From Thelephora terrestris (Eukaryota; Basidiomycota; Agaricomycetes; Thelephorales; Thelephoraceae), in contig WIUZ02000001.1 in assembly GCA_015956445.1 (NCBI GenBank), forward strand, positions 2,666,001-2,730,000: DNA of 64,000 nt. Reading direction: 5' to 3'. Below, in pieces: positions 41,294-55,123 of the stretch (positions are counted from its first letter, which is position 1; every line of letters starts with the position of its first letter). The position numbers and the translations under genes were made by a program. The notes under the pieces were generated by a model that did not search any database, was not told the origin of the DNA, and saw nothing but the letters and a program-made list of their open reading frames with translations.

Positions 41294-41691
41294 ATGCCTG
41301 ATAGAATCAATTCGAACCGAGATCAAGACCAACGTCCGCTGCTTCCTCCTGATACCCCTGCTCATTATCATGCTAACTAACACGCAGACTACCGCACCGA
41401 ACTCAACAACTACCTCCAAGTGAACGGTGGACCCAGCCGTCTTCAGTGGAAAGATGTTAAAGATGGCCCTCAGCATAGACCAACGTGGACTGCCATCTGC
41501 TACAGTGGGTGTCTTCTGATGCAGCCGCAGCCCTGTCCCTAGCTCACTACGATCACGCAGTCGATGGCACCCAGTATGCAAAGGTGTCCAAGAACAACTT
41601 GTCAGAAGCGAAGGAGGAAGCTGCCCGTGTGGCGCATAGAGCACTGTTATTCGACCGTTTCCGTGAGAGCGCTGGCCATGTCATTACCTGA
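41294..41691 (+). CDS. Small single-domain dsRNA-binding protein, copy 1
   Basis: This gene is predicted to encode 95 residues in three exons (41294-41333, 41388-41504, 41561-41691). Residues ~15-80 show the dsRBD fold pattern: helix 1 YRTELNNYLQ, the GPQHRPTW loop that carries the minor-groove histidine of the family, a second strand ending ICYIDG, and helix 2 SEAKEEAARVAHRALL. The usual basic KKxAK at the start of helix 2 is weakened here to KNNLSEAK. Intron 1 has a strong branch site (GCTAAC). Both introns are phase 1 at positions shared with copies 2 and 3. Nothing flanks the domain except ~14 and ~15 residues, so it probably acts through RNA or dimer contacts alone. Function is unknown. 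Confidence 0.72.
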
Positions 41692-43253
41692 CCCAGACGT
41701 CCATGCTAGTTTAATTCCGAGATTTTGTCATCCACATTCCAATGTATGGCCCACCTATTCTACAGCGTATAGATATCCGTTTTATGATGGTTATTACTGC
41801 TCCCCCGGTCTCGTTCATTTTCTAAGATAAAATGCGCATAAGCACCGCCTGCAACAAAGGCAACAGATCACTTCAGACGCTTTTCGAGCATCCTGCCGCG
41901 ACGGACTCATTTGAACGACGTACCACTTCCACTGCGGTGGAACATTTCACAGGGCAATAGTCCACTCATGCAGAAACCTCCTACGATTATGGATGCCTGT
42001 GTCCATCGGAACTGTTAGCAGGGTCTATCGCTGGCAGAATCGCGCGCGCTTGGATGGCCGTTGACCGTGGTTTCTTCTGGAAACAGGTGCTCGAAAATCT
42101 ACGCGAGGGAATACCGGACCCGACCAACAAACACATGTACCCTACGGTACCACGCTTCGCTCCCGTTATCCGATAACCGTCATGGAGCGATGATGGTGAC
42201 TTCGGCGAGCTGGTTCTTGCGCGTCCCGGTCCCGGCCATTGTCACTTAACTCTCACTTGTGTGAGATGTTATTCGCCCACAGATAGTAGGGCTTTGGGTA
42301 CCATATGGAGATAATTGAATAACTGCCTTCGGATCCGAAGGCGAACGTCATAAACCAGACAGCAAACGCACTTTCAAGTCAATCCAGACTTTGCCGTGCC
42401 TTGGATCATTGCCAATGGTTCGTATAGATTATGGAACAATTGAACAACTGGCCCCCAGGATGACCCGAGCACCTTGATTAGGAGACTTTTTGGGTGAGTC
42501 CCCGCATGCATCATCTGTTGATTGTTTTAAACTCACCCAATCGCGGAAAACGTTAGATACCAGGATGTGGCTAGTGTCGACACATTTGCAAGGGCGCGGC
42601 AATGTCCTTAGAACGCTCAGATTCAAATCTGCACGTACAGGTCGGCTTGCTTCTTGCCACTAGTCCCTCGACGCTGTCAACTAGAACCCACCCTCGATCC
42701 ATTCCCTAGCGCTGCTCCCCGCTTCTGCGATACCGTGACCGTTCTTCGCGACCCGATATTTTCAATCCGGGATGATGAGAAACCATGGGCCCAACCAATC
42801 CAAGCTGGAGCTCCGACTCGCCTATGTGGGAGCCTAACTCTCCGTTCAATCCTGTGGTCTCATTAAAGATATTTGGGGTACCATCCCCTCTACTGTTTTT
42901 TGCGGAGACGTTGAGTAGGTTTGCTACACAGCCTCGCAGCTGTGAAGCGATGGTCGTCCGGTTTTCGGAGTTTCGGTTCCGGATACCTAGTTTTCGTCTA
43001 AGAGCGTCCTTTTGCATTTACCGCCGTGGCGTTTCTCCTCAAGCCATACTCATCGGCCTCGAAGAACGAAGTAGATCACCAACGCGCCATTTGCCCCACC
43101 TCCTGAAAATGACCGGGAGAGCCCTTGGAATCAATCCACGTCGCCACCCCTTACAAACTCTGACGGTGCTCTGCTGATTACGGGAACGTCGTGCCGGACT
43201 ACAGAACTGTTCGGTTGTTTGACGGTTTTTGCCCCGCCGCGCCTCGTTCTTAT
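41692..43253. other. Intergenic between dsRBD copies 1 and 2
   Basis: I see no gene here. A plus-strand frame of 130 codons at 42785-43177 and an overlapping minus-strand frame of 103 codons show no dsRBD-like or other motif. The stretch is as long as several of the genes, so a decayed paralogue could be hidden in it, but none is visible by eye. Confidence 0.35.
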
Positions 43254-43649
43254 ATGGAGTCATCCATTGCGTTGTCCGTTTCGGTCCTAGCCTGGCTTGT
43301 TGTTTTTGGCCCACCTATGGTGTCTCGGTTGATCACGATGTATACGCGCCGACGAATAGGGCAGATGGGCACAATGGGCGACAAATCGAAGTATATGAAC
43401 GAGACGAAAGCATCTAACAGCACGGAACAACTCCCCAGCACAGAACAACCCTCCAGCACAGAACAACCCTCCAGCACAGAACAACCCTCCAGCACAGAAC
43501 AACCCTCCAGCACAGAACAACCCTCCAGCACAGAACAACCCTCCAGCACAGAACAACCCTCCAGCACAGAACAGCTCCCCAGAAGAGAATGGCTGCCCCA
43601 GGCGCAACAAACCGTTCGTGCTACAACACGAACACATCACCCACGCTGA
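43254..43649 (+). CDS. Possible small membrane protein with STEQPS repeats (doubtful)
   Basis: An ATG at 43254 opens a 131-residue frame. It has a hydrophobic span (SIALSVSVLAWLVVFGPPMV), a basic stretch (YTRRR), and then nine six-residue units close to STEQPS encoded by the minisatellite, and it ends in a short basic tail. The layout resembles a small single-pass protein with a repetitive, hydrophilic exterior. However, its 3' part overlaps exon 1 and intron 1 of dsRBD copy 2 on the same strand in another frame, and the opposite strand of the repeat is also open in two frames. It may therefore be only an upstream open frame in the copy 2 leader, or chance. Confidence 0.25.
   Translation: MESSIALSVSVLAWLVVFGPPMVSRLITMYTRRRIGQMGTMGDKSKYMNETKASNSTEQLPSTEQPSSTEQPSSTEQPSSTEQPSSTEQPSSTEQPSSTEQPSSTEQLPRREWLPQAQQTVRATTRTHHPR
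43419..43580. repeat. 18-bp minisatellite, nine tandem units
   Basis: Nine head-to-tail units of 18 bp span exactly 162 bp. The seven internal units are identical (AGCACAGAACAACCCTCC). The first and last differ at a few bases, as expected when copies are gained and lost in the middle. The unit length is a multiple of three, so a frame across it stays open whatever the copy number. The array ends nine bases before the start codon of dsRBD copy 2. Confidence 0.95.
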
Positions 43650-43955
43650 CTAAACCCCTTCCAGACTATCGAATGAGATTGAACAACCACTTGCAATCTG
43701 ACGGTGGTACCCAGCGCCTCGAGTGGAGCAACCCTATCAAAGTTGGCCCTGACCACGAACCTAGCTGGACCATTGTTGCGTCCTGTCAGTCACACAATCC
43801 TCTGCTATGTTCCTGTCTGACTCGCTTTCGTAGTGGACGGTGCTGAGGCTGGTCGCGCAACCAAGCGCGATCTGAGCGAGGCAAAGGAGGAAGCCGCTCG
43901 CCAAGTCTTGAGGCGCCTCCTCGTTCCCAATGTGGTGACAAGGCGCGGCCCCTAG
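43589..43955 (+). CDS. Small single-domain dsRNA-binding protein, copy 2
   Basis: Three exons (43589-43613, 43665-43784, 43834-43955) encode 88 residues. The domain runs from YRMRLNNHLQ through the GPDHEPSW loop and WTIVASLDG to helix 2 DLSEAKEEAARQVLRRLL. It is closest to copy 1: the stretch LSEAKEEAAR is identical and both lack the standard basic KKxAK signature. Intron 1 (GTTCGT...TTCCAG, branch CTGACTAAAC) falls just before helix 1 and intron 2 falls within strand 2, both phase 1, as in copy 1. The N-terminus before the domain is only nine residues. An alternative start in the upstream repeat frame would give a premature stop after splicing, so the ATG at 43589 is preferred. Confidence 0.72.
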
Positions 43956-44462
43956 TTGGTGGGACAAACTGTATCCTACAACGTTTTTGCTTGCCCTACT
44001 AGTTTTCGTCGGCGTTGGTAACTTTAGTTACCTACGATGTCGAATACATCATTTCGCTTTTCGAAAAGTCCCGTGGTCTTCTGTGTGAAATTTAACCTAT
44101 TTTGGTCTCTGGGCGCTTTCGGCGATCATCCCTTCATTTCCCTTGATCATTCTCGTCGTTCCAATCAAGTTCCAATCCTGGATTCACTCCGGCCACCGCA
44201 CCCCTTTCGCAGAGTGTGGCCCTTGGACGTATCTTGTACCATGCCACACCCCGTTCCGTTTCGTTTTCTTTGCCTTCTCATTTTCCGATGCGGCGGACCC
44301 GATGTCGCAGCACAGCAGAGTAATTTCGCTTAGAGGTCAACCTAAACAGCCCCCCTTCCCAACTAAACATCGGGATTCAAACTAGGTAAAAGACGCTGGA
44401 CGTATCTGCGTCCATAAAGATCTGGGCTACCCGGCTCCGTTCGACACCTTCCCAGCCCACAT
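43956..44462. other. Intergenic between dsRBD copies 2 and 3
   Basis: No gene is recognised in these 507 bp. They should contain the copy 3 promoter. Short pyrimidine-rich runs occur but no clear core element. Confidence 0.4.
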
Positions 44463-44854
44463 ATGTCAAAACACGGCAGTGTGTCCCATTCGTAAATTTT
44501 TACGGGGTTGCCCCCTGCTCACTGCTTATCGACGTCGTTTAGGCCCACGTCAGACTCTGAACAACTTTCTTCAATCCAGGGGAATGATCAACGACATCCA
44601 ATGGGATGTCACTCGTCAGGGTCCTCCCCATGACCCGGTTTGGTACGCGGTTTGTCAGCGTTCGTCGTTCTCCTAGTCTGTTTTTTGGAATGTGCTCATC
44701 CCCCACAGTTAGAGGCGTAGTACTGGGAAATGGGAGAGCGCGCAAGAAGAGGGAAGCAAAGGATGAAGCGGCCCTGATGGCGCTGGAGGCCCTAACTCAC
44801 CCGCCTCCACGAGTCTCGGTGTTGATCCGTCGACGACGTAACTCGTTCCCTTGA
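44463..44854 (+). CDS. Small single-domain dsRNA-binding protein, copy 3
   Basis: Three exons (44463-44478, 44543-44659, 44709-44854) encode 92 residues. Exon 1 codes for only five amino acids. The domain reads RQTLNNFLQ, then the GPPHDPVW loop, WYAVCQLRG, and helix 2 with RARKKREAKDEAALMALEAL. Unlike copies 1 and 2, the basic signature at the start of helix 2 is intact (KKREAK), so RNA binding is most plausible here. A basic tail (IRRRRNSFP) follows the domain. Intron 1 uses donor GTGTGT, intron 2 GTTCGT; both are phase 1 at the sites shared with the other copies. An alternative donor six bases earlier in intron 2 would shorten strand 2 by two residues. Confidence 0.7.
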
Positions 44855-45422
44855 CCCTAGCATCCACACTAACAGAGACGACCTGTGACCTTTCCTATCA
44901 CTTTGTTGGGGCTCTCCCATACCGTCGTTCGCCTGCAGTGCACGCGCTATCCGAGGCAAAGGATGGTTTGGATCAGGAAAGTAAGTGAAAGTGCAAGATC
45001 TGATCAGAAGCCCCACCCGGCCAACCGCCAGATCGGTTCCAGGGCTGTTTTGAGTTCGCCGGTACTTCTGAGGTACAGGGTAAACCATCTTCATTGTGGC
45101 TCTCGTTCTCAGCGCCCCGTTCACACCCCCGCCCCACAACATAGCCTTCTGCGATCTCATTGCTCACTGATCCTCACCCTTTTGGCGAGGGTGCTTACGG
45201 AAACCGTGGTTCTCTGTGGCACCGACAAACGGGATCTCCGGCGTATCGGTTAGTCTCCAGAGCTCCGGCACGGGGGATCAAACCAGTTGTTCGCCTGTGT
45301 GGATTTATTTCACAACCACTCGGAGAGTTTTACGAAATCCAATCGCCCGGGGCTTAGGCTCTTATGGGTTCCCCTCCGCCGGAGTCAAGAGATATAATAA
45401 CCTAAGTCAGTGTGAGCAGAGG
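44855..45422. other. Intergenic between dsRBD copies 3 and 4
   Basis: No gene is recognised. A frame open from 45216 runs into copy 4 in phase, but the added residues look unlike protein-coding sequence, so I take this stretch as promoter and spacer. Confidence 0.4.
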
Positions 45423-45851
45423 ATGGCACAGCGACCCAAGATGGCCGAATACACCCCCTCTGCTTCCTCCGCCCCCAAGCCCAACGAGTATTGGCACCAT
45501 CTTAACAGCTTGTTGCAGTCCCGCAAATTGGAACACATACTTGGCGGTAGCCTGCAGAAGAGTGGACCAGACCATAAACCTACCTGGACTTTCGTCTGTA
45601 TGAGTTCATCTCGCTTCAATCTTTCCTCGTTCGCTCGATTCTTACAGCAGCTCATAGTTGATGACAAACGGTATGGTAGCGGCACGGGACCGAGGAAAAC
45701 GGCTGCGAAAAACGACGCTGCTCGCAAGGTCTACCGTCAATTTTTTTTGGACGACCCGAAGGCTGCTGACCTCAATCGGGCTGTCTGCCGTCGCATTCTC
45801 CTCGAAGACGCAATGGAAGTCGTCGCACGCCGGGGGGGAAATCCTTCTTAA
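45423..45851 (+). CDS. Small single-domain dsRNA-binding protein, copy 4
   Basis: Two exons (45423-45603, 45658-45851) encode 124 residues, the longest of the four. After a Pro/Ser/Ala-rich start of ~22 residues the domain reads YWHHLNSLLQ, the GPDHKPTW loop, WTFVCMIDDKRYGSG and helix 2 GPRKTAAKNDAARKVYRQFF. It then adds a ~40-residue helical C-terminal extension (AVCRRILLEDAMEVVARRGG) missing in the others. The intron before helix 1 is absent, but the strand-2 intron is at the shared place and phase. Its donor could be either GTATGA or, six bases later, GTTCAT; I chose the second because it keeps the same spacing as the paralogues. Basic residues (RKTAAK) at helix 2 resemble the RNA-binding signature. 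Confidence 0.72.
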   Translation: MAQRPKMAEYTPSASSAPKPNEYWHHLNSLLQSRKLEHILGGSLQKSGPDHKPTWTFVCMSSSRFNLSSFARFLQQLIVDDKRYGSGTGPRKTAAKNDAARKVYRQFFLDDPKAADLNRAVCRRILLEDAMEVVARRGGNPS

Positions 45852-50607: not shown

Positions 50608-53600
50608 TCACCTCTTTCCACTGAGTGTTTCCTGAACATCCGTGATGGTTCTAGCAGCATCGATCGCCTGAGAGCCACCAGGGAGAATCATCAGTCGTTG
50701 TTTTGTTGTGTTCAAGACCTGCTGTACGCTGGGTATCACCCTTGCAACGTACGGGGAGACCAATGGATCCGATGGGTCCAACACCGATGCGGCTCTATGC
50801 AGCCACCACAAGGTGCTTTTGAAACTTTCATCAACCGGCGGGGTCTCGCCAAGTGCAGCGGCGAGACGATGCACCAAGGTTAAGATTACGGCTTGCGAGA
50901 GGGGAGGTGTCGTATTGACGGGCATGATCACCTCGGGATTGCTACGCCCCAACAGATCCCTCAGTTGCCGCAGATCCTGTGTACTCAACACGTGCAAGTA
51001 TGATTCGTCCCACTCTTCCGTTGGTGCTGGGGAGGTGTGTGATTGAACGGGGGGAGGGGCGGCGGGGTGAGAAGCCTGAGGAGCAGCGATGTTCGTGTTG
51101 AACCAATGTTGTGGGTTGTGCAACACTGGGGGAGGGGGAATGGCCTGTTGGTAACCGTTATGTTGTTGAGGATATCCTGATTGTTGAGGCAATTGGGTGG
51201 GGAGCTGCGGCTGGTGGCGATACTGATTAACTCCCACCAAACCAGACTGTTGTTGTTGTTGATTAGTTGGAGCCGGAGGGGCGGGAGATCCTCTGGATGA
51301 CAACAGATGGGACGGTGTGTTCGCGACGGTGTTGGTGAGGGACAGGTACTTGACCTGCTCGGAAAGCATCTTAACGTTCTGTTCAAGATCGCGGATGACG
51401 CTATCCTGAGTGCGGCCGGATTCTGTTTGCCACGCGGCGATCTCTTTCCTCAGGCCCATCATCTCATTGCGCATCTCCTGGACAAGATCTTGGTGCTGCT
51501 GAGCGTATGCAGGAAGGAGGGTCTTCGATACGGTGTCTTTGATCTGCCGCTCGATCAAAGGGGTCACGTTGGATGTGAAGTTCCTGGCGATCTGCGTAGA
51601 AATTTCAGGCCTGATGAGGAGGCGCTCGATCTCCGTGGGGATGCTCTGTAAGAGCAAATCGTAAATGCGTATGCCAGCTGATGTCAAAGGTAAACCTTAC
51701 CTGTTTTATGCTTTCCGTCACGCCTCTTGCAATCTGGTTGCCTAAGGCAGCCTTGACTTCATTCTTGGTGATCGCCTCGAGGGCAGGGAGCACGGAGTTC
51801 TGAACTTCGGTCTTAACCGCCATCTCGACCACCCTCGTCGTGTTCTTCGTCAACTCGTTCGAGATCAACTTCAGTATCTTCTCTTGCCTGAGGAAGTCGG
51901 CAGCCTGTTCGTTTGCCCGAGCATCTTCCATGCGTGCATCTTCCATGGGAGAAAAAAATAAATGTCAACGAACAGAAAACTGTAACCACCCTCAAGGCTT
52001 ACGTTGTTTGTCCAGCTCCTTGGCCAACAGCCTCCCGATTTTGGTGTGAAGATTATCCTCAGTTTTCTTGATCTCCTTAGTCAGAGCTCCGAGTGCGCTG
52101 TCGCTCAGCACACCAGCATCGAGACCAGAGGTGCTTCCTCCTGCAGAGTCTTTGCCATTGCCCTCCTTACCCCTCCATCCGACGTTCCTCGACTTTGCGT
52201 TGCGACTCTTGACCTCCGATGGTCTGGCCTCGTCCTTGACGATCTCACTGTCGACTTCGTCTGAAAGAGGTGTCCTGGGGCGAGCGGGGGGTTGGGATAC
52301 AGGAGAGGGAACGACCCGCGACTGTTGCGCCTGAGCTGGAGCAGGTGCTTGATTGATTCTCTCGCTCCTCGGTGGCCTGGTTTCATTCGGTTGTTGGGGC
52401 GGTGGCTGGGTTGGCTGGAGAGATGGGGTGTAAGAGGGGTATTTCGCTGGAGCACCAAGGCTCGCAGAATCGAACCACTCCCTTCGAATCAACACTTGAT
52501 CAACTCCGCTCGCGTGCACAGAAAAGGCAACGAGAGCGAGTTCCCCCGGGGGGACCTTCGCGGCTACGCACGCTGCAAGTGCCTCTTCGCCGGTAGGGTC
52601 CAGGTCCGCGGTGAGAATGACAAAGTGGATCGTTGGTTTTGGACCGCCAAACTCGACTATCTGTTCGATGAACAGATTCTTCGCTCCATCATCACCCGTT
52701 GGAGAAAGCGCAAGTACATCAGAACCGATCCGTAATGCGATCATACTGTCCCTTCTGTTATTCGCCACCCATAGGGTCTGGATCCGGTGGTCGTAGGTAA
52801 TGTGACCGAACATCTCTGAATCATCCGGGCGGTTGGAATTAACGAACTTGACGGTGGAGAGCACGCTTTTGCCCTTGTATGATAACAGCTGGAATACGGT
52901 GCCGTTTTTGCGCCCGACCACAACGCCACCATCGACGAGGGTCAAAGAGGAGGGTACGTCTTCGCCTTTGACTTTATAGGACCAGAATTGGGTAGAGTCA
53001 GCGATACTCCAGAGAGTCAAGGTCGAGTCGTCCGAGATCGTGGCCAAGGCGTAATGGATAGCATCGAAGTCAAAGGCGGCAATGGGAGAGCCGGACGTGA
53101 AAACTTGACTGACTCTGTCAAGGTCGGATGGGTGGACGGTTTCGTACATTCGAGATGCCTCGAACACGTTGATAAGGTAGATGTGAGTATCGGACGCCAA
53201 CGCAAGGGTATCCGGATCCTTTGGGTGCCACTTGACCGAACGGAGGGCAGAAGGGCCGGTTGAAGGTAAGACTCGAAGCAAGACCCTCCCAGGGACATCG
53301 TCAGTGATGAGCTCTGGTAACTCCCAGACCACGAAGCCTCCATCGGATGTGACACCGGCAAGCCTGTTGCCGAAAACAGCCATGTCGATGACCGACGTTG
53401 AGGGTGCAAATATTGGCGGAAGCTGAAGGAGAGTGCGATCACCGCTTGAACGGGAGATAACGCGGATGCGGCCCTTGGTCATGGCGTAAGCAACCCAGTG
53501 GGTAGCACCGATGGTCGTGCCAGGCAGGAAATTCGAATCGACCTTGACAAGGGCGATGGCAGTCGACTTGACGGAATCACGAGGGGCTTGGATCTCATCC

Positions 53601-55123
53601 AACGGTGGTGCCACATCAAACACGATTGACTGGGCCTGGACGCTGCTGGGTTGGTCAGAGACCGTCGATAACGGAGGAGGGCAAAGAACATACTGGGGGC
53701 TTTTTTGCTTGCTCCTGCGACCGCTTTCCTGGCTCTTCCAATTAACACCGCGAGGTACCGGGGAACTCTCTTTCTCCCGCTGCCTCTCGGCGGCGTGTTG
53801 ATCGAGTGGGGAGTCGTTGTTTCTGCGGGGATTTTGACGAGGTGCAGCCTGTTGATATATCTGAGGCTTCGGGGGGGAAGCGCGGGGCGAGGTGACAGTG
53901 GGTTTTGGGACAGGCAGGGGCCTTCCGTATTGTTGAAACAGATCAGGCTGGTAAACCTCCTCACTCGGGTGAGCGTGGTAAGGAGCAGCATGTGGTTCTG
54001 GAGGAGCCTGGGTGTTCTGTGGGAAAGGAGCTTGCCCTCGGGTAATTTGGTCCATGATGTCTTCAACGGACTTCCTCTTGGGATCATTCCAGGCTTGATC
54101 ATGTTTGGGCGCAGGACCGACTTCCGGGACTGGTTTTTTCTTGACTTGCGACTGAGTGGGAGAGGGACCCGTGGTGCTGGCCAGGGCATCGAATGGGGTA
54201 GAAAACTCGAATAATGCTTTCCGCGGAGGGGATTCCACGCGCTGTTGCTGCCTCTGGGGGCCACCGAGCTGCTGGGGAACAGGTTCGGAAAGCTGTTCAA
54301 CAGGTCTGTAGATTTGAGGATGATAGTATTGATCAACCTCAGGTCGTGGAGGTTGGTGCTCTTGAGGTGGAGGTGAGATGAAAGGAGGAGAAGTGGAAAC
54401 AGGTGCCGGTGCCGGCTGAGGAAGCGTCGTGGGAGGTTCAGAGAAGTTGGGGACAGGAGCAGTGCTGAGGTTAGGGAAGTTAGGAACAGACTCGAAACTA
54501 TCGGGGATGGTTCACAAATCGGATAATTGGAGAAAGAAAAATGCGACGGTAACATACCCAGACATGAGCTGATCGAGCAGAAGTTTGCCTTGATCTGAGG
54601 TGCTTGGACTCTGGACGGTGTTTGCCCTTTGAGTGTTTGCAGATCCGGGGGGAGTAGGCACCTGGGTAGGTGCCATTTGCACGGACTGAGGCTGCATGAC
54701 AGGCATCAAGAGTGGAGCCGTGTTCATCGGGGTGTTGTTCGCAGTACTAGACACAGAGCTCAATAGAGAAAGCAAAACGTTCGTCGTACTGTTCGATGGT
54801 GTGGAACCGGTTTGGGGAGGGCTAGAACCGCCGCCTGGGCCGGTCTGGAGAGAAACAGGTGTAGCAGGAGCGGAGTTTGACTCCGTTGGATGAGTAAGGT
54901 TGTTCATGTAGGGAGGCGGGGGATAATTTTGAGGACTGGCCGTGTTTGAAGTGAGACGGGAATCGATAGAGTTATTAGGATTAACGTTGGGCGACGAGTT
55001 GGCGAGTGCAGGATCAGATGGCGTGTTGGGCGCGGGATCCTCTGGTTGAATTGGGAGAACGTCAATGGAAGCCCTTCTCGGAGGAGACGGCCCTCTGGAA
55101 AAAACACTGCGCATGGGATCCAT
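50608..55123 (-). CDS. EDC4: Enhancer of mRNA decapping 4 homologue (EDC4 / Ge-1 / Varicose)
   Basis: EDC4 is a processing-body scaffold that links the Dcp2 decapping enzyme to its activators. Four exons (55123-54558, 54497-52003, 51939-51701, 51645-50608) encode 1445 residues, about the size of human EDC4. The first ~500 residues are Pro/Ser/Gln-rich and disordered and include a LLLDQLMSG helix. A WD40 propeller spans roughly 560-880, with clear blades such as LRSVKWHPKDPDTLALASD and AFDFDAIHYALATISDD. A Ser-rich linker is followed by a helical coiled-coil (about 1060-1230: ERQIKDTVSKTLLPAYAQQH region). The C-terminal alpha-helical Ge-1 domain (KSTLWWLHRAASVLDPSDPL) comes last. Intron 2 ends in AAG. 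A Gln-rich linker (QQQQQSG) precedes the C-terminal domain. Confidence 0.88.

Follow-up and report, generated by a model that had tools for sequence, protein, structure and literature searches.

A cluster of four genes in the genome of the basidiomycete Thelephora terrestris belongs to a genome-wide family of minimal proteins, each with a single double-stranded RNA-binding domain (dsRBD). The cluster lies in a 64,000-nucleotide (nt) stretch of contig WIUZ02000001.1 (assembly GCA_015956445.1, positions 2,666,001 to 2,730,000 of the forward strand), here called the window and numbered from its first letter. A preliminary description, made from the letters of the window alone, had placed four same-strand genes of 88 to 124 residues, each essentially one dsRBD, between positions 41294 and 45851, and the spliced models gave the same limits and sizes. 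All gene models were predicted from sequence, with splice sites picked with homology in view. The genes and their introns (lengths in nt and amino acids [aa]) were as follows:

41294..41691, forward strand: dsRBD gene 1, 95 aa, exons 41294-41333, 41388-41504, and 41561-41691; PF00035 33.8 bits, E value 5.2e-8
41334..41387, forward strand: gene 1 intron before helix 1, phase 1, 54 nt
41505..41560, forward strand: gene 1 strand-2 intron, phase 1, 56 nt
43589..43955, forward strand: dsRBD gene 2, 88 aa, exons 43589-43613, 43665-43784, and 43834-43955; PF00035 28.3 bits, E value 2.8e-6
43614..43664, forward strand: gene 2 intron before helix 1, phase 1, 51 nt
43785..43833, forward strand: gene 2 strand-2 intron, phase 1, 49 nt
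44463..44854, forward strand: dsRBD gene 3, 92 aa, exons 44463-44478, 44543-44659, and 44709-44854; PF00035 41.2 bits, E value 2.5e-10
44479..44542, forward strand: gene 3 intron before helix 1, phase 1, 64 nt
44660..44708, forward strand: gene 3 strand-2 intron, phase 1, 49 nt
45423..45851, forward strand: dsRBD gene 4, 124 aa, exons 45423-45603 and 45658-45851; PF00035 42.0 bits, E value 1.4e-10
45604..45657, forward strand: gene 4 strand-2 intron, phase 1, 54 nt, in frame and stop-free

All four proteins scored above the 23-bit curated cutoff of the Pfam dsRBD hidden Markov model (PF00035, dsrm), and the spliced models contained the introns described before, that is, a phase-1 intron in strand 2 of every gene and a phase-1 intron before helix 1 in genes 1 to 3. 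Gene 4, which has no intron before helix 1, carries an extra C-terminal helix. It has a possible alternative strand-2 donor (GT at 45598), and its open, in-frame intron makes a retained-intron form of 142 aa possible. Every model intron, in the cluster and in the dispersed members described below, starts with GT and ends with AG. The least certain exon of the cluster is the first exon of gene 3 (16 nt), for which other choices exist; together with the 10-nt first exon of a dispersed member (C45:385), it forms the weakest part of the models.

A profile built from genes 1 to 4 retrieved 50 distinct sequences from the PDB at an E value of ≤0.1, with ADAR, PKR, TRBP, ILF3, and RNase III chains among them (best E value, 5.3e-15). 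When each of the eight intact-looking family members was scored against a profile of the seven others, the values ranged from 57.6 to 100.8 bits, although these scores are not fully independent, because homology guided the choice of splice sites. Given such scores for every member, a chance origin of the four-gene dsRBD pattern is very unlikely. The eight-member profile also scored the unspliced single exons in the window at 34.3 to 66.8 bits; the next best frame reached only 6.4 bits, and no fifth copy was found in the window.

The predicted fold pointed in the same direction. One of the eight members was modeled, namely, the unspliced 142-aa frame of gene 4, with an alignment of 12 single exons from six other members. 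The model (mean predicted local distance difference test [pLDDT], 73.8; predicted template modeling score [pTM], 0.57) had the element order helix-strand-strand-strand-helix typical of dsRBDs (a-b-b-b-a), together with one additional helix encoded by the retained intron and a long helix at the C terminus. A Foldseek search against the PDB gave 559 matches at an E value of ≤10, with dsRBDs on top (best E value, 2.1e-3) and none at ≤0.001. Among the best 50 of the 559, 40 were dsRBD or RNase III-type proteins by name (ADAR, Staufen, DHX9, Drosha, DGCR8, Rnt1, and others), and the remaining 10 were six mitoribosomal chains and four YcaO.

The four window genes are not the entire family. Protein, pattern, and family searches of the assembly (40.6 Mb in 60 contigs) revealed at least four more members that look intact, one on contig C12 and three on C45, as well as a decayed copy on C17, which brings the family to at least eight intact-looking members plus the decayed copy. 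The genome was searched with single exons and scores were computed for the top candidates, so that these numbers are minimum estimates. The additional copies were as follows:

C12, near 1,727,400, reverse strand: C12 member, 87 aa, PF00035 38.3 bits
C45, near 298,100, reverse strand: member C45:298, 81 aa, PF00035 38.3 bits
C45, near 384,000, forward strand: member C45:384, 89 aa, PF00035 37.7 bits
C45, near 385,700, forward strand: member C45:385, 81 aa, PF00035 36.2 bits
C17, 395,516-395,815, reverse strand: decayed copy, relative of gene 1, 67.7% DNA identity to gene 1 over 328 bp

All eight intact-looking members passed the PF00035 cutoff (28.3 to 42.0 bits), and all eight spliced models have the phase-1 strand-2 intron in one common codon. 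The phase-1 intron before helix 1 is present in seven, gene 4 being the exception, and C45:385 has an additional phase-1 intron inside helix 1. Each protein holds one dsrm stretch, in contrast to Dicer cofactors of the TRBP, Loqs, and R2D2 type, which have two or more dsRBDs in one protein, and no RNase III catalytic domain was found in the eight members (no Pfam match to Ribonuclease_3 or Ribonucleas_3_3 at an E value of ≤1). The shared introns argue for common descent, as had been proposed under the idea of tandem duplication of one gene. C45:384 and C45:385 also form a tandem pair on one strand, with ca. 1.3 kb between them. However, duplication was not only tandem, since the closest relative of gene 2 is the C12 member (72.9% DNA identity over 325 bp, introns included) and C17 holds the decayed copy related to gene 1. 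Along the same lines, the proposed lineage expansion holds within this genome, and the cluster undercounts it. In a tree of seven domains, gene 2 and the C12 member formed the only grouping with some support (85/86, with no starred branch), and genes 3 and 4 were long branches.

The motif GPxHxPxW could not be equated with the family. The pattern matched 27 times in the genome (6 times for the reversed-pattern control), and sorting by eye assigned 7 matches to family dsRBD genes, 11 to one dispersed repeat, and 2 to one duplicated other sequence, with 7 left unplaced; C45:385, which carries GLKH, was missed by it. The repeat contains near-identical copies of GGTCCATGACATTTCCCAAAGTGG (loci L004, L011, L013, L016-L020, L026, L027, and L030). 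The duplicated sequence lies on contig C3 at 393-397 kb and 514-517 kb (L009 and L010), 120 kb apart, with identical translated sequence around the pattern match. Two further dsRBD genes were not counted as members, C56:453087, in which a DEAD match (42.3 bits) accompanies dsrm (23.8 bits), and C3:620854, whose dsRBD stands behind a putative RNase III stretch. Viral relatives were also rejected: in a scan with one query protein, gene 1, eight stretches in viral contigs matched its peptide pattern and none encoded a relative.

As to what these proteins do, we tentatively favor, from sequence evidence, a role as small, fast-evolving, trans-acting dsRBDs that may modulate dsRNA processing or silencing by binding dsRNA or by pairing with dsRBD proteins. 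The domain would derive from the C-terminal dsRBD of an RNase III-like protein, for example the one encoded on contig C58, and after this first copying it would have been duplicated in tandem and dispersed. The resulting proteins would either bind dsRNA themselves or associate, dsRBD to dsRBD, with other proteins of this type, and in both cases alter which dsRNA gets to Dicers with a divergent dsRBD. Members that keep a basic helix 2 (genes 3 and 4 and C45:385) would bind RNA directly, and for those without it (genes 1 and 2 and the C12 member) the expectation would be weak binding or a role as partner or decoy. The preliminary description had suggested stand-alone dsRNA binders possibly acting on viral or transposon dsRNA or as RNA interference modulators, an interpretation that appears partly supported and plausible.

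The putative source on C58 encodes an RNase III-like protein (approximate splice joins) that scored 34.3 bits with Ribonucleas_3_3, just below the cutoff of 35, and 22.5 bits with Ribonuclease_3 (cutoff, 27). Its C terminus, behind a proline-rich linker, is a dsRBD (dsrm, 27.9 bits, above the cutoff of 23) with the loop GPPHAGKW and, by eye, an intron in the codon and phase (phase 1) of the family strand-2 intron. It differs from the family in its RNase III-like domain and linker and in having no intron directly before helix 1. The C3:620854 gene also has a dsRBD (dsrm, 29.8 bits), next to a stretch with an RNase III signature that scored below the cutoff (Ribonuclease_3, 18.8 bits versus 27) and is absent from the seven RNase III matches in the genome, so that the name RNase III is our own reading; by eye, its intron lies elsewhere, in phase 0 after the W. 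Since the intron codon and phase agree and the family profile scores the C58 domain higher (43.2 bits, versus 35.0 bits for C3), C58 would be the better candidate and a plausible source. A parallel intron gain is possible, as is descent in the reverse direction, from the family to C58. Active RNase III enzymes carry the signature LExLGD; that of the C58 protein (L091 and L090) reads LATLGE, and the protein is perhaps not catalytic.

The genome has Argonaute, Dicer, and RNA-dependent RNA polymerase (RdRP) matches, which fall at the exon level in five Piwi, seven RdRP, and five RNase III places (grouped from 13, 20, and 7 matches); their presence is only permissive as support for a link to RNA silencing. 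Paired RNase III domains occur at two of the five RNase III places, one on C2 and one on C1, and these two were read as large Dicers. No Pfam family matched the 107-aa C-terminal piece of the C2 Dicer at an E value of ≤1, and the 70-aa C-terminal piece of the C1 Dicer gave only DSRM_2, at 16.7 bits (cutoff, 27); the family profile reached at most 0.5 bits at all seven RNase III loci. According to a 2025 survey of fungal Dicers, no dsRBD was detected in most of them, with values of 2.7, 9.4, and 62.7% for classes A, C, and D, and the same text cautions that divergent dsRBDs may escape detection (PMC12663654). As a separate observation, a 25-kb part of contig C6 (650-675 kb; L066, L074, and L061) contains two Piwi places together with an RNase III place, perhaps a small silencing cluster.

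According to one paper, dsRBDs contact RNA through three regions, a helix-1 glutamate, the GPxH loop, and KKxAK (PMC11309768). Seven of the eight members retain the loop, which connects strands 1 and 2 (C45:385 has GLKH), and KKxAK, at the start of helix 2, is near consensus in gene 3 (KREAK), gene 4 (KTAAK), and C45:385 (KRLAR). When the position of the helix-1 glutamate is located by eye, the family has a residue other than E there; a PKR domain that aligns well has LNTY at this place. Net charge was +1 to +6 in the seven domains computed (C45:385 excluded). From the states of GPxH and KKxAK, the products of genes 3 and 4 are predicted to bind dsRNA, and those of genes 1 and 2 to have weak affinity for it or to work via a partner.

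A number of observations weigh against a role in modulating dsRNA processing. KKxAK is degraded in genes 1 and 2 (LSEAK), the C12 member (LEQAK), C45:298 (KGEAR), and C45:384 (KGDAQ), and mutating two lysines of this motif reportedly abolished RNA binding of MLE dsRBD1 (PMC6486548); the state of helix 2 in genes 1 and 2 and the C12 member would speak against a uniform set of dsRNA binders. The link to C58 consists of one intron position and modest scores. Moreover, the C1 and C2 Dicers may hold divergent dsRBDs of their own that Pfam missed. Finally, no silencing gene was recognized next to the cluster in a Pfam scan of seven neighboring long frames, and the selection data given below for the youngest pair of genes and the decay of the C17 copy count on the same side.

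The absence of Argonaute, Dicer, and RdRP from those seven frames, six of which have Pfam matches, would suit ordinary small RNA binders with no tie to silencing, acting on structured RNAs (rRNA, tRNA, or mRNA hairpins) or in translation control and multiplied by drift; dsRBDs are, after all, common general RNA-binding modules. We consider this explanation somewhat unlikely: the domains are 29 to 61% identical within the genome (21 pairs from seven members, C45:385 left out), and one would not usually expect housekeeping RNA binders to diverge so fast and to be duplicated again and again.

The divergence data bear on a further possibility, that the genes are mostly decaying or nearly neutral duplicates, whose domain survives for some time once they have been copied and few of which are functional. 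The C17 copy has five stop codons within the stretch matching gene 1, some of which fall in the would-be intron, as well as a TAG in the exon-2-like stretch and a frame change in the exon-3-like stretch. In the youngest pair, gene 2 and the C12 member, there was no clear purifying selection: exons (72 to 74% identical) were no more alike than introns (73 to 83%), the differences at codon positions 1, 2, and 3 (25, 18, and 19 over 70 codons) showed no third-position excess, and omega was 0.63 (bootstrap range, 0.32 to 1.25), with 8.9% of bootstraps reaching 1. For gene 2 and C45:298, omega was 0.59 (0.26 to 1.12), so that the value was inseparable from 1 in two of the three bootstrapped pairs. 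The open frames of gene 2 and the C12 member are a weak sign of selection, as both stayed stop-free in 2.7 to 11.1% of runs of a neutral simulation without indels. The degradation of KKxAK in several members would also fit decay. Against it stand the open spliced frames and the structural core retained in eight members, the third codon position, which was the most different in 20 of the 21 pairs (the exception being gene 2/C12; synonymous differences were saturated in 10 of the 21), and the third bootstrapped pair, gene 1 and C45:384, with an omega of 0.34 (0.15 to 0.70; 4,405 of 5,000 bootstraps usable). The third-position excess and the omega values therefore indicate long-term constraint, but fast or relaxed recent evolution, and general decay is in our view unlikely.

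The type-B dsRBDs of TRBP and Loqs act by dsRBD-dsRBD pairing. That the family consists of decoys or scaffolds working in the same way, through pairing alone and without RNA binding, would account for the loss of the two leading KKxAK lysines in genes 1 and 2 and the C12 member, yet it is scarcely probable with the RNA-contact loop (GPxH; PMC11309768) kept in seven of eight members and a positive net charge in all the domains computed.

Regarding known systems, many dsRBDs have F after GPxHxPx. The family resembles PF00035 in its scores, in the element order of the gene 4 model, and in the GPxH loop, and differs in having W at that position, in the degraded KKxAK of several members, and in that the whole protein is about one domain. 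Dicer cofactors with dsRBDs are known mainly from animals and plants, and the plant proteins DRB7.1 and DRB7.2 have a single dsRBD. Like the family, these two partners of DRB4 are small dsRBD proteins that could withhold dsRNA from a Dicer (PMC8138440); DRB4 is their known partner, and no DRB4-like one was identified here, so that the likeness is taken as an analogy. Loqs2 of Aedes is likewise a lineage-restricted small dsRBD protein that arose when a domain was duplicated, has kept its intron positions, and evolves fast, but it contains a pair of dsRBDs, descends from a known parent (loqs), and reportedly acts in the control of dengue and Zika viruses (PMC10809485). The family members, in turn, have one dsRBD and a putative parent. 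By analogy with both systems, the modulating role could be extended to a minimal, fast-evolving, and repeatedly duplicated dsRBD set that was freed from an RNase III-like ancestor. Its members would serve Dicers whose own dsRBDs are divergent as interchangeable trans-acting subunits, binding dsRNA or acting as decoys, and the conflict would be with mycoviruses or transposons, so that the set would be a fungal counterpart of Loqs2 and DRB7.2; we hold this extended version to be quite unlikely. No description of a fungal family of such small dsRBD proteins appeared among the open-access literature matches listed, and no open-access paper joined "double-stranded RNA-binding" and "Agaricomycetes". 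DRB4, HYL1, and ADAR1 are named in the survey of fungal Dicers (PMC12663654). As free dsRBDs in a fungus that has silencing genes, the family members offer concrete candidates for dsRNA binding in trans, and the four-gene cluster is compact enough for deletion in a single step.

With regard to the surroundings of the cluster, four of the seven neighboring frames scored above Pfam cutoffs (ATP synthase, prenyltransferase alpha, Syf1, and class-V aminotransferase). Two had matches below the cutoff only, an EDC4-like C terminus and an EDC4-like beta-propeller, the latter also matching other WD40-type models, and one had no Pfam match at an E value of ≤0.01. The subthreshold EDC4 matches mark a possible decapping-enhancer gene ca. 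5 kb beyond the cluster (window positions 50608-54511, reverse strand). Within the cluster, positions 43418-43590 hold a unit of 18 nt that recurs several times and is open in all three forward frames, one of which reads STEQPS-like; the array stops immediately ahead of the start codon of gene 2, and a 161-codon frame with a hydrophobic stretch (43164-43649) extends into it.

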